A stretch of 37,220 nt of DNA from a virus: positions 1 to 37,220 of IMG/VR virus record IMGVR_UViG_3300040770_000473. The stretch is one strand, 5' to 3'. Below, in pieces: positions 27,615 through 31,816 of this stretch. The notes beneath the pieces are model-generated. The model was not told where the DNA came from and ran no database searches. It saw nothing but the letters and a program-made list of their open reading frames with translations. The position numbers and the translations under genes were made by a program. Numbering within the stretch: the stretch's first letter is position 1; every line of letters starts with the position of its first letter.

Positions 27615-28201
27615 AAAATAACACTACCAAATTCCACCCAATACTGTTTTCTACGCCAATGGTTCAGGCTATACTGGAAGGAAGAAAAACCCAGACTAGG
27701 AGGATAATAAAAGATGAACTTTTACAAAATTCAACTCCAGATGATGATCTTGAATTTTTACTGCTGACTATCATCTATAAATATAAAGTGGGCGATGTGC
27801 TTTGGGTTAGGGAAACTTTTAGAGCGATTGATCAAGAAGTAGGTTCTCCCAGATTTGAGTACAAGGCAACTGAAGTTATTAATTTAATTGATAAATGGAA
27901 ACCTTCTCTTTTCATGCCAAAACAAGCCTGCAGAATATTCCTTAAAATGAAATCTATTAGAGTAGAGCGATTGCAGGACATCAGCGAAGAAGATGCCAAA
28001 GCCGAAGGAGTCGATTTTGTCGAAGGAATTAACGGGAATTTATATTTTAATTATTTAAAGAAGGAGTATGGCGGTAACGAACGTTTTTCTTTTATGACCC
28101 TCTGGGAATCAATAAATGGTGATGGATCTTGGAACAAAAACCCATTTGTATGGGTGTATGAGTTTGAGCGAATTGAGAAACCTTTAGATTTTATTGTATG
28201 A
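27611..28201 (+). CDS. ASCH-domain phage protein
   Basis: 196 residues. The ASCH pattern is visible in order: PILFSTPMVQAILEGRKTQT with RRI, YKVGDVLWVRETF, then KSIRVERLQDISEEDAKAEG and the final TLWESINGDGSWNKNPFVWV. ASCH folds are PUA-related and bind RNA or modified nucleosides; phage copies are frequent in early accessory regions. It overlaps both neighbours by four bases. Confidence 0.75.
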   Translation: MKNNTTKFHPILFSTPMVQAILEGRKTQTRRIIKDELLQNSTPDDDLEFLLLTIIYKYKVGDVLWVRETFRAIDQEVGSPRFEYKATEVINLIDKWKPSLFMPKQACRIFLKMKSIRVERLQDISEEDAKAEGVDFVEGINGNLYFNYLKKEYGGNERFSFMTLWESINGDGSWNKNPFVWVYEFERIEKPLDFIV

Positions 28202-28455
28202 GCAAAACTGAAATATACGGCTATGGTATTGTTGCCATTTTATTGCCGAACCTAATTTTCTTGATTTTTATATTGTGGCAAATGCACTATAATGGGTTTT
28301 CGTACGGTAGAAAAATACCAATGCCTCCAGAACATTTAAGACCGAAAGTAGATCTTTATCTCCATTGTTTTGAATGCGAAATTGAAACAGTAATTAAACA
28401 AGAAAAAGGAGTTTTAAGCTGCAAAAACTGCGGTTTAATTCATCAAAATAGTTAA
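28198..28455 (+). CDS. membrane protein with C-terminal zinc ribbon
   Basis: 85 residues. A membrane helix at about 8-28 (YGIVAILLPNLIFLIFILWQ) is followed by a proline-containing linker (MPPEHLRPKVD) and a zinc-ribbon-like end with two cysteine pairs (HCFECEI, SCKNCGLIH). It starts with an ATGA overlap. The first cassette boundary (GTTAACGG at 28451) falls on its stop codon. Function unknown. Confidence 0.5.
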   Translation: MSKTEIYGYGIVAILLPNLIFLIFILWQMHYNGFSYGRKIPMPPEHLRPKVDLYLHCFECEIETVIKQEKGVLSCKNCGLIHQNS

Positions 28456-28527
28456 CGGCACTCGGCTTGCTCGTCGTTGTGGCGAATTCAACACAAATAT
28501 TAACAAATAATCACTAAATTTTAAATT

Positions 28528-28761
28528 ATGCCAAATACTTCCAAAGAAACCGAAATGCCACAATGCGTGCAAACCGATGTTAGCAGTAGCGCTCATCCTT
28601 TAATGGTATTGATGAAAAAATATCATAATTGTGGTATGGAATTAAGAGAAAGAAAAAAAGTAATTACAGATACACAAGATATTACTGTTATTGATTTACA
28701 AATACTAACCAATGAAAGATTTTTAACAGACCTTACAGCTTTGGCAGTTGCTATTCTTTAG
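28528..28761 (+). CDS. cassette gene 1, hypothetical
   Basis: 77 residues (ETEMPQCVQTDVSSSAHPLM, VLMKKYHNCGMELRERKKVI, ending LTDLTALAVAIL). Not recognised. It has a 70-base leader after the boundary at 28451 and its stop is followed within five bases by the next boundary, a spacing typical of one-gene cassettes. Confidence 0.5.
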   Translation: MPNTSKETEMPQCVQTDVSSSAHPLMVLMKKYHNCGMELRERKKVITDTQDITVIDLQILTNERFLTDLTALAVAIL

Positions 28762-28766
28762 TTACT

Positions 28767-28800
28767 GCTAACGGTTGTGGCTTGGGTTTCGGCTTGGTGC
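28767..28800 (+). repeat. cassette boundary half-site
   Basis: GCTAACGGTTGTGGCTTGGG and following G/T-rich text resembles the 5' side of the attC-like site at 29300 (CTAACG) and its leader (GGATTGTGGCTT). No partner GTTAG is found downstream, so this is a half or decayed site. Confidence 0.35.
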
Positions 28801-28852
28801 TGACAAAAAAACCATCTTTCGGATAAACACTAATCTTAACAAATACAAGACA

Positions 28853-29293
28853 ATGGATAAATTAAAAAACAATAAAAAAGCTGAAACCAAACCACTGTTA
28901 GTGGCTGGGCTTTCTCTTGAAGAATGGATTGCCAAAGAAACCGCCCCAAGAGTACCAAGTTTATGGTCTGAAAAATATCCTGAATACTCTCCATATTTAT
29001 GTGAAACGATTATTGGAGATGGATTGCAATTAGTTTATTTAGGCACAATAGATAACAGACCTTATCATTGGCTTATTTTAATTGACAGCAGAACAGATGT
29101 AAGTTCAGATGATTTTGATTTTGAAGATATTTTACAACCAATTGAAGAAGAATGTGGAAGTTGTGAAGGTGTTGACGAATGCGAAAGTTGTCAAGAAAAT
29201 GAAGAAGAATGCGAATATCCAAGCAATATATCTTGGGGTGGTGGACATTGGGGAATGGTAGTTAATTTTGGTACTGGTGAGGTCGGTTCGTAG
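28853..29293 (+). CDS. cassette gene 2, acidic Cys-rich protein
   Basis: 146 residues from the ATG at 28853; the in-frame ATG at 28775 lies inside the boundary repeat and is unlikely. The N-terminal half is ordinary (SLEEWIAKETAPRVPSLWSE, IDNRPYHWLILIDS). Residues about 85-130 are very acidic, with a C-x-x-C series (EEECGSCEGVDECESCQENE) that may bind metal. The end is Gly/Trp-rich (SWGGGHWGMVVNFG). Unknown family. The acidic patch might mimic DNA, as in some phage anti-defence proteins, but this is speculation. Confidence 0.5.
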   Translation: MDKLKNNKKAETKPLLVAGLSLEEWIAKETAPRVPSLWSEKYPEYSPYLCETIIGDGLQLVYLGTIDNRPYHWLILIDSRTDVSSDDFDFEDILQPIEEECGSCEGVDECESCQENEEECEYPSNISWGGGHWGMVVNFGTGEVGS

Positions 29294-29301
29294 CCTTGCC
29301 A

Positions 29302-29375
29302 CTAACGCTCCAGCGATAGGGGCTGTTTGCCTAAGTGGCGCGTAGATTCGGCAAATAGACCTTATCGTGTGTTAG
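29302..29375 (+). repeat. attC-like recombination site
   Basis: CTAAC (29302-29306) pairs with GTTAG (29371-29375); CGATA (29314-29318) pairs with TATCG (29363-29367); TTTGCC (29326-29331) pairs with GGCAAA (29350-29355). The arms between match imperfectly (about 11 of 14) with unpaired bases, and the loop is 18 bases. This 74-base imperfect inverted repeat with short perfect end cores is the layout of integron attC sites. Confidence 0.55.
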
Positions 29376-29781
29376 CGGATTGTGGCTTTTTAAAGATAAA
29401 CTTCTGGGCGGAGTTATAAAACCCAAAACAAATATTATGAATGATAATTTAAGTAGAGCCTACGAAGTGAATCACATCGAGGACATCAAAAGAAACCAAA
29501 AAGAAAATAATTCGTTACTGAAAAATTTAGTAACCAATTACGATGAAAAACAAGGCGAAGTGCTTATGGGTAAAATTCAAAGTAATGAAAATCCTGAATT
29601 TCCTATTTATTATTGCTTGTCTGAAAGCTTAACCGCTTGCGAAAATGCTATAAAAGCAAAACCAAGCAGAGAATTAGCATTAGTAAAAACCAAACTTCAA
29701 GAAGCTTTGTTTTGGCTTAATGAAGCGTAAATCTGTTTTTATTGGCGGTGGTTCTTGATTACTACCGCCATATCCGCTAAC
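29371..29781. repeat. 10-bp perfect inverted pair flanking cassette gene 3
   Basis: GTTAGCGGAT (29371-29380) and ATCCGCTAAC (29772-29781) are perfect reverse complements bounding a 411-base unit that holds only the Acb2-like gene. Just inside the right copy is a hairpin TGGCGGTGGT / ACTACCGCCA (29743-29752, 29761-29770; 9 of 10 pairs). Confidence 0.6.
29437..29730 (+). CDS. cassette gene 3, Acb2-like (anti-CBASS nucleotide sponge) candidate
   Basis: 97 residues from the ATG at 29437. The C-terminal helix SRELALVKTKLQEALFWLNE matches the conserved end of the Acb2/DUF7681 family (pattern R-E-x-x-L-x-x-T-K-L-x-E-A-x-x-W). The preceding helices (NHIEDIKRNQKENNSLLKNL, SLTACENAIKAKPS) fit the small all-helical fold. 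Acb2 proteins bind cyclic oligonucleotide signals and block CBASS defence. The family call is from motif memory, without a search. It is the only gene in a unit flanked by inverted repeats and is adjacent to a recombinase. Confidence 0.5.
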   Translation: MNDNLSRAYEVNHIEDIKRNQKENNSLLKNLVTNYDEKQGEVLMGKIQSNENPEFPIYYCLSESLTACENAIKAKPSRELALVKTKLQEALFWLNEA

Positions 29782-29832
29782 TACTATATATAAAAAACAT
29801 CTGTAACACTAATAAACTTAATACCTAAGACT

Positions 29833-30636
29833 ATGAATATCGGAAAGTATGTGGAATTGTATTCCGAAGATTTAAAGCTTAAAAATTATGCTGAAAATAC
29901 TATTTCAAACTATTGCAGTCAGGTGAAATTGTTTTTAGAGTATTTTAATAAAGTAGCTACTAAGCCTTCTGAAATATCAGAGAAACAAATAAAAGAATGG
30001 TTATTGCTAGCTAATTCAATAAACGGCAGGAAGCATAGAATTTCTGCCGTGAAATTGTTTTACAAGTACACAGGCAAGCAACCATTAAAATTTAAGCACA
30101 TTGAATACCCAAGAGGAGAAAAGAAACTTCCTAAAATTATTGAAAAGGATTTTTTAATAAGTCAATTGGATAAAATAACCAACAGCAAGCACAGGGCGTT
30201 GCTCACAATGACTTATTCTACAGGAATGAGAGTATCTGAGGTAATTAATCTTTTAATCTCGGATATAGACAGTAAACGGATGATAATTTTTATACGCAAC
30301 TCCAAAGGGAGTAAAGACAGAATTGTTCCTTTGAGTCAGAAAGTTTTAGAGCTGTTGCGTGTTTATTTTACAGAGTACAAACCAAAAAAGTATTTATTCA
30401 ATGGTCAGTTTGATCTGCAGTATTCCTCTACGAGTTGTAACCAATTGGTAAAAAAATACATTGGAAAAGATTTTCACATGCACTTGCTGAGACATTCCAA
30501 CGCCACTGCATTATTGGAGGCTGGAACCGACTTGAGATACATTCAAAAACACTTAGGCCACGCCAATGTAAAAACTACAGAAATATATTGCCATGTTTCG
30601 ACTGCAGCATTATCAAAACTTAATTTACCAATTTAA
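29833..30636 (+). CDS. second tyrosine recombinase, XerC/D- or integron-integrase-like
   Basis: 267 residues: a SAM-like core-binding domain (1-85, ENTISNYCSQVKLFLEYFNK) and a full catalytic domain with Arg in STGMRVSEV (about 133), Lys in SKGSKDRIVPL (about 158), HxxR in HMHLLRHSNAT (about 216-219), His in LGHANV and Tyr in EIYCHV (about 250). No arm-binding domain is present, unlike the lysogenic integrase at 19082. It lacks the extra helix segment expected of canonical IntI and is shorter (267 against about 320-340). It follows the cassette array and might act on those sites, on the phage's own multimers, or at a host dif-type site. Confidence 0.85.
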   Translation: MNIGKYVELYSEDLKLKNYAENTISNYCSQVKLFLEYFNKVATKPSEISEKQIKEWLLLANSINGRKHRISAVKLFYKYTGKQPLKFKHIEYPRGEKKLPKIIEKDFLISQLDKITNSKHRALLTMTYSTGMRVSEVINLLISDIDSKRMIIFIRNSKGSKDRIVPLSQKVLELLRVYFTEYKPKKYLFNGQFDLQYSSTSCNQLVKKYIGKDFHMHLLRHSNATALLEAGTDLRYIQKHLGHANVKTTEIYCHVSTAALSKLNLPI

Positions 30637-30755: not shown

Positions 30756-31112
30756 ATGCAATAAATTCTAATACTACATGCAATCATGGGACTGTAATTA
30801 AATTATGTGTCATCAGGATACAACTATATGCCGCTCCGGGACGGTAATTAAAATTACCCACTAACAGATGTAAAATCAAAAACAATCCCGCAGTGGTTCT
30901 CCCTGCCCTCCCCCGCACCCCCGCAATGGCAAAATGTACCCAAAATGTGGAGTAGTGGAGTTGTGGAGCGAGACACTGGCCAAGAATTGGCCAGAACACA
31001 ACTAAAGACACAAAAACAAATCTCAAAAAAAATTTTTTTTGGACTTTCCCCCGAACCCCCTAATTTAAAAAGCTATTGAAAGGAGTAAGGCCGAAAAACT
31101 CGGAATAAAAAG
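30756..31112. other. non-coding stretch with G/C-rich block and small repeats
   Basis: No gene is supported here (a minus-strand open frame at 30784-31026 has no support). It holds a degenerate direct repeat (GGGACTGTAATTAAA at 30789, GGGACGGTAATTAAA at 30838), the palindrome GGTAATTAAAATTACC (30843-30858), a C-rich run at 30898-30923, three TGTGGAG-type copies (30946, 30954, 30962), and the hairpin CTGGCCAA/TTGGCCAG (30976-30994). Its GC content is well above its surroundings. Confidence 0.5.
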
Positions 31113-31310
31113 GTTCCACAGTTCCACAGTTCCACAAATTTTTTTTAATAACATCTAATCTTATAAATATCAAATACTTACATTAAAATTTCAATATTTA
31201 CAAAGTGTGGAACTTGTGGAACTGTTTTTTATGGTTCCTACAGATTATGTGTTTTTTATTAATGGTTTTTGTTATAAGTATTTGATTATCAATGCGTGGA
31301 ACTGTGGAAC
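31113..31310. repeat. iteron array around an AT-rich core: candidate replication origin
   Basis: Seven exact or one-mismatch copies of TGTGGAAC. Three are in the reverse direction and tandem (GTTCCACA at 31113, 31121, 31129). Four are direct: 31206 and 31215 (period 9), and 31295 and 31303 (period 8; the 31295 copy starts with C). Between the inverted sets lies about 70 bases of almost pure A/T (31137-31203). Opposed iterons flanking an AT-rich stretch are typical of initiator-bound origins. A packaging (pac) site is the alternative, because capsid genes start just downstream. Confidence 0.55.
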
Positions 31311-31326
31311 CAAAAAAACCAAAAAA

Positions 31327-31381: not shown

Positions 31382-31816
31382 ATGAGTGAAAGAACAGCCG
31401 TAACCATAAATTTTCCCGTAAAACCACACGTTTACAAGTATTTACAAAATAAAGTAGGTGAAAAACTCGTGGTTACAAAGAGTGATTTCTTTGGCAGCAT
31501 GGTTCTAGACATACTTTCTAAAAATTACAGTGATCTGCAGGCCGTGAAAGACGACATTACTTTCCCAGTAGAGATATCGCTGCGCTACATGGAAAAAATG
31601 GGAGTTTACATTGATAGCAAGATCATACGCAAGTTTAACACTCGTGTTGACGATGTTTTTCGAGAAGAAATGCGAACGTATGTGGGGCTAAATTACACCG
31701 CAAATAAAATTCCTAAAGAAACCAGTTTGAAGCAATTTTGTTTCAATTATAACCTTTCTGAAGACGATATTAAATTTGAAACGTTGCTTAAAGATTTACG
31801 CCGTAACATCAAGTAA
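31382..31816 (+). CDS. putative replication/regulatory protein beside the iterons
   Basis: 144 residues from the ATG at 31382, chosen over the in-frame ATG at 31292 because that start lies inside an iteron and upstream of the promoter. The N-terminus TAVTINFPVKPHVYKYLQNK and the segment KSDFFGSMVLDILSKNYSDL recall a small, widespread Bacteroidota prophage family of unknown role. The rest is helical and basic. Position next to the iteron array and under operator O-e suggests an initiator, or alternatively a small-terminase-like DNA-binding protein. Function inferred from context. Confidence 0.5.
   Translation: MSERTAVTINFPVKPHVYKYLQNKVGEKLVVTKSDFFGSMVLDILSKNYSDLQAVKDDITFPVEISLRYMEKMGVYIDSKIIRKFNTRVDDVFREEMRTYVGLNYTANKIPKETSLKQFCFNYNLSEDDIKFETLLKDLRRNIK

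Follow-up and report, generated by a model that had tools for sequence, protein, structure and literature searches.

Cassette arrays with attC-like sites beside a tyrosine recombinase point to an integron-like gene-capture platform in phages of Bacteroidota

The window analysed here, 37,220 bases long, is a whole virus record (IMGVR_UViG_3300040770_000473). At 28453-29800 it carries three complete cassettes, placed between a zinc-ribbon-like gene and a tyrosine recombinase of 267 amino acids (aa). We consider it very probable that this array and its relatives represent a platform by which Bacteroidota phages capture genes in an integron-like manner, for which a mechanism is proposed below. A first-pass annotation, made from the letters of the window, had suggested that the phage carries a system for capturing cassettes which lies outside classical integrons. 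This suggestion was supported by arrays at 49 loci, by an attI-like site and by base-exact movement of cassettes. We confirmed in the window the elements that it named: small genes, boundaries of the CTAAC/GTTAG type, a site that folds, and a short, complete tyrosine recombinase.

Cassette array and site rules

Each cassette reads, from 5' to 3', as a G, a stem (64-124 nucleotides (nt) in the window), R' (GTTA plus 6 nt), a gene and R'' (6 nt plus TAAC). The two ends of one cassette, R' and R'', are reverse complementary in all three cassettes, and the arms lying 3' of R'' and 5' of R' pair with each other (Table 1). The first-pass annotation had recorded a single attC-like site, at 29302-29375. 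This site does fold: the DNA fold of 29300-29378 reached -15.4 kcal/mol (z-score -3.1, none of 200 shuffles equally good) and the RNA fold -32.6 kcal/mol (z-score -3.8). The count, however, was wrong, as three sites are present, and the first two were overlooked because their second arm and R' lie inside an annotated open reading frame (ORF), at 28579 and 28897, respectively. Likewise, the single-gene units with long leaders are real, but two of the apparent leaders are the sites themselves. With its full grammar the parser returned the three cassettes and, as a fourth unit, a long pairing that joined a real R' to 30865 and is spurious; no other unit start was found in 37 kilobases (kb) on either strand, where 852 and 633 AAC starts were parsed. 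No R' matching the R''-like boundary at 28447-28456 was found upstream, and this boundary is therefore probably the junction between backbone and array.

Table 1. Features of the window (a slash marks the junction between TAAC and the attI-like block).
Feature	Position	Strand	Remark
R''-like left array boundary (AATAGTTAAC)	28447-28456	+	parse ends here
Cassette 1	28457-28772	+	
attC-like stem 1 (L''/L' arms)	28457-28578	+	duplex -19.9 kcal/mol
R' of cassette 1, GTTAGCAGTA	28579-28588	+	reverse complement of own R'' 28763-28772, 10/10
ORF of cassette 1, 77 aa	28528-28761	+	start codon within stem
Cassette 2	28773-29306	+	
attC-like stem 2	28773-28896	+	duplex -15.7 kcal/mol
R' of cassette 2	28897-28906	+	pairs with own R'' 29297-29306, 9/10
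ORF of cassette 2, 146 aa	28853-29293	+	start codon within stem
Cassette 3	29307-29781	+	
attC-like stem 3 (site of the first-pass annotation)	29307-29370	+	duplex -16.2 kcal/mol
R' of cassette 3, GTTAGCGGAT	29371-29380	+	pairs with own R'' 29772-29781, 10/10
ORF of cassette 3, 97 aa, Acb2/Tad1 hairpin domain	29437-29730	+	PF24729
attI-like site TAAC/TACTATATATAAAAAACAT	29778-29800	+	conserved profile TAACTATTATATGTAAAA, 46 distinct arrays
Tyrosine recombinase, 267 aa	29833-30636	+	R133, H217, R220, H243, Y252
Zinc-ribbon-like gene	28198-28455		flanks array on its left
Second tyrosine integrase, conventional, 407 aa	19082-20305	-	context only

Related recombinases were found in 82 viral loci, of which 68 were inspected, the window included. 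Cassettes were called with a strict rule-based parser plus controls. A test of pairing was preferred over a covariance model of our own, because the arms vary freely and pairing is more direct. Under the strict rules, 155 cassettes (144 distinct by arms) were found in 49 of the 68 phage recombinase loci, at most nine per row, while control parses of 150 random AAC starts in the window and of 25 shuffled arrays gave none. In an unbiased variant the last R'' ahead of the recombinase served as the query, and R' was placed solely where the sequence was complementary to it. Such an R' had a stem at least as stable as -12 kcal/mol in 45 of 45 arrays, whereas 12% of the remaining GTT positions did. 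R' matched its own R'' at a mean of 9.75 of 10 bases, and the R'' across the stem at 5.92 of 10, four of these being fixed (GTTA/TAAC). With permuted R'', 5-6 matches were typical, against 10 for the own R''. Only the excised circle therefore has the whole palindrome, as is the case for integron cassettes.

The sites follow the attC architecture R''-L''-loop-L'-R' with an unpaired spacer. Among the distinct phage cassettes a G follows AAC in 139 of 144 and a T precedes GTT in 143 of 144, the sequences of the arms are highly variable and the arms can be identified chiefly through their pairing. One strand folded better than the other in 151 of 155 phage cassettes. The core site GTTRRRY was present in 6 of 142 phage cassettes and in 10 of 97 chromosomal ones. 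Stem lengths clustered near 40, at 53-54, 62-66, 77-83 and 108-124 nt, with a few near 180.

The last cassette of the window abuts a conserved attI-like site (TAACTACTATATATAA) 5' of the recombinase, so that an attI site lies beside the integrase gene, as in integrons. The block TAAC/TAYTATATGTAA stands directly after the last R'', about 50 nt 5' of the recombinase start codon, and the sequence 5' of TAAC is variable throughout the 46 distinct arrays. A scan of viral contigs with the attI pattern gave 15 matches at arrays, some of them known already; the pattern is AT-rich and matched mostly by chance.

Genes point toward attI in 142 of the 144 distinct phage cassettes, and not away from it as in integrons; the hairpin is thus the 5' leader of its gene. 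The longest ORF starts inside the stem in 49 of 142 phage cassettes, therefore exchanges at R' swap the N-terminal peptide. In the window, the L' arm and R' are translated at 28528-28588 and 28853-28906. Common N-terminal peptides (M..QCVQTDVSS) stand on differing protein bodies in the loci L089-L091.

Cassette movement and the proposed mechanism

Cassettes are shared between unrelated phages. Cassette 1 of the window is identical, in 316 of 316 nt, to a cassette in IMGVR_UViG_3300040770_000507 (locus L087; the IMG/VR contigs are metagenomic), while the flanks, 31% and 26% identical, are unrelated. The recombinases of the two phages are 51% identical. In another pair of phage contigs (L012 and L031) a common cassette of 1009 nt was found at 93% identity with base-exact borders.

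Relocation could be read at base level among isolated phages. Lillamyvirus genomes (L092-L096, L306-L311) have 11-14 cassettes per array as well as an attI-like TAAC/TACAATATTACATG; among eleven arrays of the genus it is whole cassettes that differ, several of them at the attI end. The isolates lillamy9-1 and lillamy9-3 have the same genome length, 38,268, and both carry cassette c7 (439 of 439 nt identical), which one isolate has in the middle of its array and the other at attI; without c7 the two arrays show 2 mismatches in 6,660 positions. In lillamy9-7 the junctions read TTTACATAAC/GTTAAAGC when empty and CTTGCTTATAAC/cassette/TACAATATTACATG when occupied. Three Polaribacter phages from the same isolation host, Freya_1, Freya_6 and Freya_10, share a left flank of 1,879-1,915 nt at 100% identity and a right flank of 201-218 nt at 98-100% identity. 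The extra units between these flanks, inserted exactly at AAC/ACCCCTATAACAAC (AAC/ACCCC) beside the phages' own recombinase, amount to 0, about 2.2 and about 4.9 kb, respectively. Cassette excision and insertion at attI were thus found in natural isolates (lillamy9-1/9-3/9-7 and Freya_1/6/10). The recombined arrangements among related phages that the first-pass annotation had asked for do exist, and its alternative of a fixed gene order with sites varying as neutral sequence does not hold, since gene order varies and the sites keep their pairing as the sequence changes.

We propose the following mechanism. The excised circle would carry the full attC-like hairpin (R''-L''...L'-R'), because the R' and R'' of one cassette are complementary. 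The 267-aa recombinase would join this hairpin to attI (TAAC/TAYTATATGTAA) or to another hairpin, with the exchange at the common TAAC. Cassettes would enter at attI and could leave from every position. About a third of the ORFs begin within the hairpin that forms the 5' leader of the gene. The substrate would presumably be the folded single strand.

Recombinase, relatives and rival explanations

In the arrays the recombinase gene, the attI-like site and the cassettes are linked. We infer that the recombinase catalyses the cassette reaction. Its catalytic residues R133, H217, R220, H243 and Y252 are invariant in the phage recombinases. It scored under the cut-offs of the IntI, XerC, XerD and archaeal XerA profiles; the IntI profile TIGR02249 gave 138 bits (cut-off 265), and the best match was the XerA-like NF040815 with 180 bits. 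The fold is generic. Alignment to IntI4 was limited to 9-175 and 207-255. The structure model (predicted local distance difference test, pLDDT, 87.8) matched XerA and IntI4 about equally and does not settle the function. An additional domain near patch III is a defining feature of IntI (PMC9668308). This segment comprises 43-49 residues in the phage enzymes (44 in the window) and 49-54 in the chromosomal ones, compared to 55-57 in XerC/D and 92 in an IntI, and the additional domain is thus lacking in the window recombinase. In the tree all phage enzymes but one long branch group in a single clade (97/93), and the chromosomal array recombinases fall in two groups. XerC/D stand apart at 100/99, and both the tree and the two family cut-offs place the window recombinase outside XerC and XerD. 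IntI, for which the tree had a complete and a partial row, both from the same genome, falls provisionally beside the array recombinases, the root being a midpoint only. Recombinases 76-91% identical to each other sit in phages with unrelated neighbouring genes, therefore the platform travels as a whole.

Related arrays were also found in bacterial chromosomes, at 35 of the 80 best-matching loci (L225-L304; e.g., L300, L262, L275), nearly all of them in Bacteroidota; only these 80 best matches were sampled. In the attI frame their site grammar is that of the phages (AAC/G in 90 of 97, T/GTT in 95 of 97). Their recombinase gene has attI at its 3' end, and of 93 genes 85 are read away from this site. 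With the same site orientation and the opposite gene polarity, the phage system is thus gene-reversed. The chromosomal recombinases are 36-46% identical to the phage ones, have a longer N-terminus, lack the IntI domain and form separate groups in the tree. No IntI over the cut-off was found in six Bacteroidota genomes with related arrays. The chromosomal arrays seem largely unreported: IntegronFinder 2.0 lists for Bacteroidetes proper In0 elements and one complete integron only, and an integron-like class has therefore been largely overlooked.

Several observations weigh against a platform driven by the recombinase. Under the strict rules 19 of the 68 recombinase loci have no array, partly because contigs end there. 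Genes from R' to R'' were kept while the stem was replaced (L085 and L088 versus the window; this part of cassette 3 is 88% identical in L085), and stems with their R' were joined to differing genes (L089-L091). Either the enzyme also cuts at the R' side or homologous exchange contributes. Moreover, Lillamyviruses move cassettes, yet no PF00589 recombinase was found in the phages tested, and we assume for this reason that their cassettes are moved by an enzyme in trans or by a different enzyme. Laban6-1, the temperate phage of the Lillamyvirus host, has a conventional integrase of about 412 aa, which is at most a candidate for the enzyme in trans. Stems with different genes, genes with different stems and shuffling in phages lacking a tyrosine recombinase are what short-repeat exchange would give, if homologous recombination at conserved intergenic stem-loops shuffled the modules and the recombinase was a bystander. 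We regard this as very unlikely: cassette 1 and its L087 copy, identical inside and unrelated outside, have in common at the border TAACG and a few bases, c7 moved to attI where the sole homology is TAAC, and the arms differ between cassettes and are conserved as pairing. The complementarity of the own R' and R'' would also be left without a role.

An ordinary role of the 267-aa protein, as a lysogeny integrase or as a dimer resolvase of the Xer type, with the stems acting as terminators or forming leader structures, is very improbable. The XerA-like profile is indeed the nearest and the hairpins do sit between genes, but the phage has a second, larger integrase, AAC/TAYTATATGTAA abuts variable cassette ends in 46 arrays, and neither the own-end complementarity nor the array turnover at attI is expected of terminators. 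The entry of a classical integron, or of a cluster of attC sites lacking integron-integrases (CALIN), into a phage with mobilisation by a host IntI is very unlikely as well. CALINs have been reported in phages, among them Polaribacter phage P12002L, where one attC was used by IntI1 (PMC9892861) and where we saw the same kind of sites. Against this stand the low TIGR02249 score, the short patch III segment, the rarity of GTTRRRY, the genes pointing toward attI and the absence of IntI over the cut-off in the six genomes. Within the platform reading, we lean towards a separate Bacteroidota/phage integron lineage near IntI that never had the additional domain. Its gene-reversed phage form would serve as a shared counter-defence pool, and the cassettes of virulent phages lacking the recombinase would be moved in trans.

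Cargo, genome context and known systems

Pfam recognised 16 families among 138 cassette proteins, and most proteins matched none. There were eight DNA methyltransferases, two Mom, two PAPS reductase-like and one Acb2/Tad1-like protein, the remaining families occurring once each; among the families listed by PADLOC only methyltransferases were added. The recognisable cargo is thus mostly counter-defence, and the selective benefit would lie in the exchange of counter-defence genes. Phage cassette ORFs have a median of 101 aa. The ORF of cassette 3 matched PF24729 (E 2.8e-7, 31 bits, cut-off 27) over residues 67-97 only, and its product is, judged by sequence, a probable signal-nucleotide sponge. 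No family was found for the ORFs of cassettes 1 and 2; the latter has relatives, 54-80% identical, in two further viral contigs. Nilsson et al. (2020; PMC7077304) described LMO9 phages that plate poorly on LMO6 and lack one methyltransferase, and named lillamy9-1 and morran9-1 as affected phages in a regrowth test of the reduced LMO6 plating. Methyltransferase cassette c17 is absent in these two and present in sniff, snork and hemulen, and we suggest that c17 might be that methyltransferase.

The window encodes among others a tape-measure protein, an endolysin, a DNA primase, a single-stranded DNA-binding protein (SSB) and a head maturation protease. The 407-aa integrase is likely a lysogeny integrase, and because of its presence the window is probably a temperate Caudoviricetes phage. 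Among isolated phages its closest similarity is to phages of Flavobacteriia. At 31104-31311, upstream of a gene at 31382, there are repeated inverted copies of GTTCCACAGTTCCAC, including a perfect inverted repeat of 16 base pairs (bp), a possible regulatory or replication site. At 30773-30852, 3' of the recombinase, two direct repeats of 30 nt (ACTAYATGC...GGGACNGTAATTAAA) are spaced by 50 nt. An Rfam scan of the window gave no match.

The platform would give phages a dedicated means to swap single small genes, counter-defence included, across unrelated lineages. This matters for the question of how phages keep up with the defences of bacteria. As most cassette genes encode small proteins of no recognised kind, the arrays also serve as a ready list of candidates for counter-defence. 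The origin of integrons, in turn, becomes testable through integron-like recombinases that lack the IntI additional domain.

Promoter/stem-loop cassettes of T4-type phages have been proposed to shuffle through homologous recombination. They resemble the present arrays in that intergenic stem-loops are tied to phage gene turnover, but have no dedicated recombinase, attI or own-end complementarity. Qi et al. (2023; PMC9892861) reported integrons and CALINs in phages, among them Polaribacter phage P12002L, a phage of Bacteroidota in which attC sites are likewise clustered and methyltransferases are part of the cargo. Of two P12002L attC sites tested there, attC2 was recombined into attI1 by IntI1, bottom strand only; the P12002L sites cloned in that study are not equated with those parsed here. 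No dedicated recombinase or attI was reported for P12002L, and divergent attC directions were ascribed to phage mosaicism. In our analysis this virulent phage (L342) has two array ends, at 29237 and 37263, with an attI-like TAAC/AACGGATAAAACAAGT; its sites are of the present kind, yet fit the strict parser rules loosely, and no relative of the 267-aa recombinase was found in it. No description of the recombinase/attI platform was found in the searchable full texts, which leave out preprints and most subscription journals. Phage attC sites were hence known before, while the platform is not described in the literature searched.

With class 1 and sedentary chromosomal integrons the phage arrays share tandem single-gene cassettes, a variable loop, an attI beside the recombinase, insertion at attI, a palindromic site split between mutually complementary cassette ends, and one strand that folds better. 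They differ in that the phage recombinase has no IntI additional domain, the R' tag is about 10 bp and not GTTRRRY, the genes face attI with the hairpin as 5' leader, and the carriers are phages of unrelated backbones. Gene swapping among phages may in this respect be likened to the exchange of resistance genes by bacteria through integrons. Given the missing domain, the different R' and the genes turned toward attI, the platform is not an integron by definition, but it functions like one.

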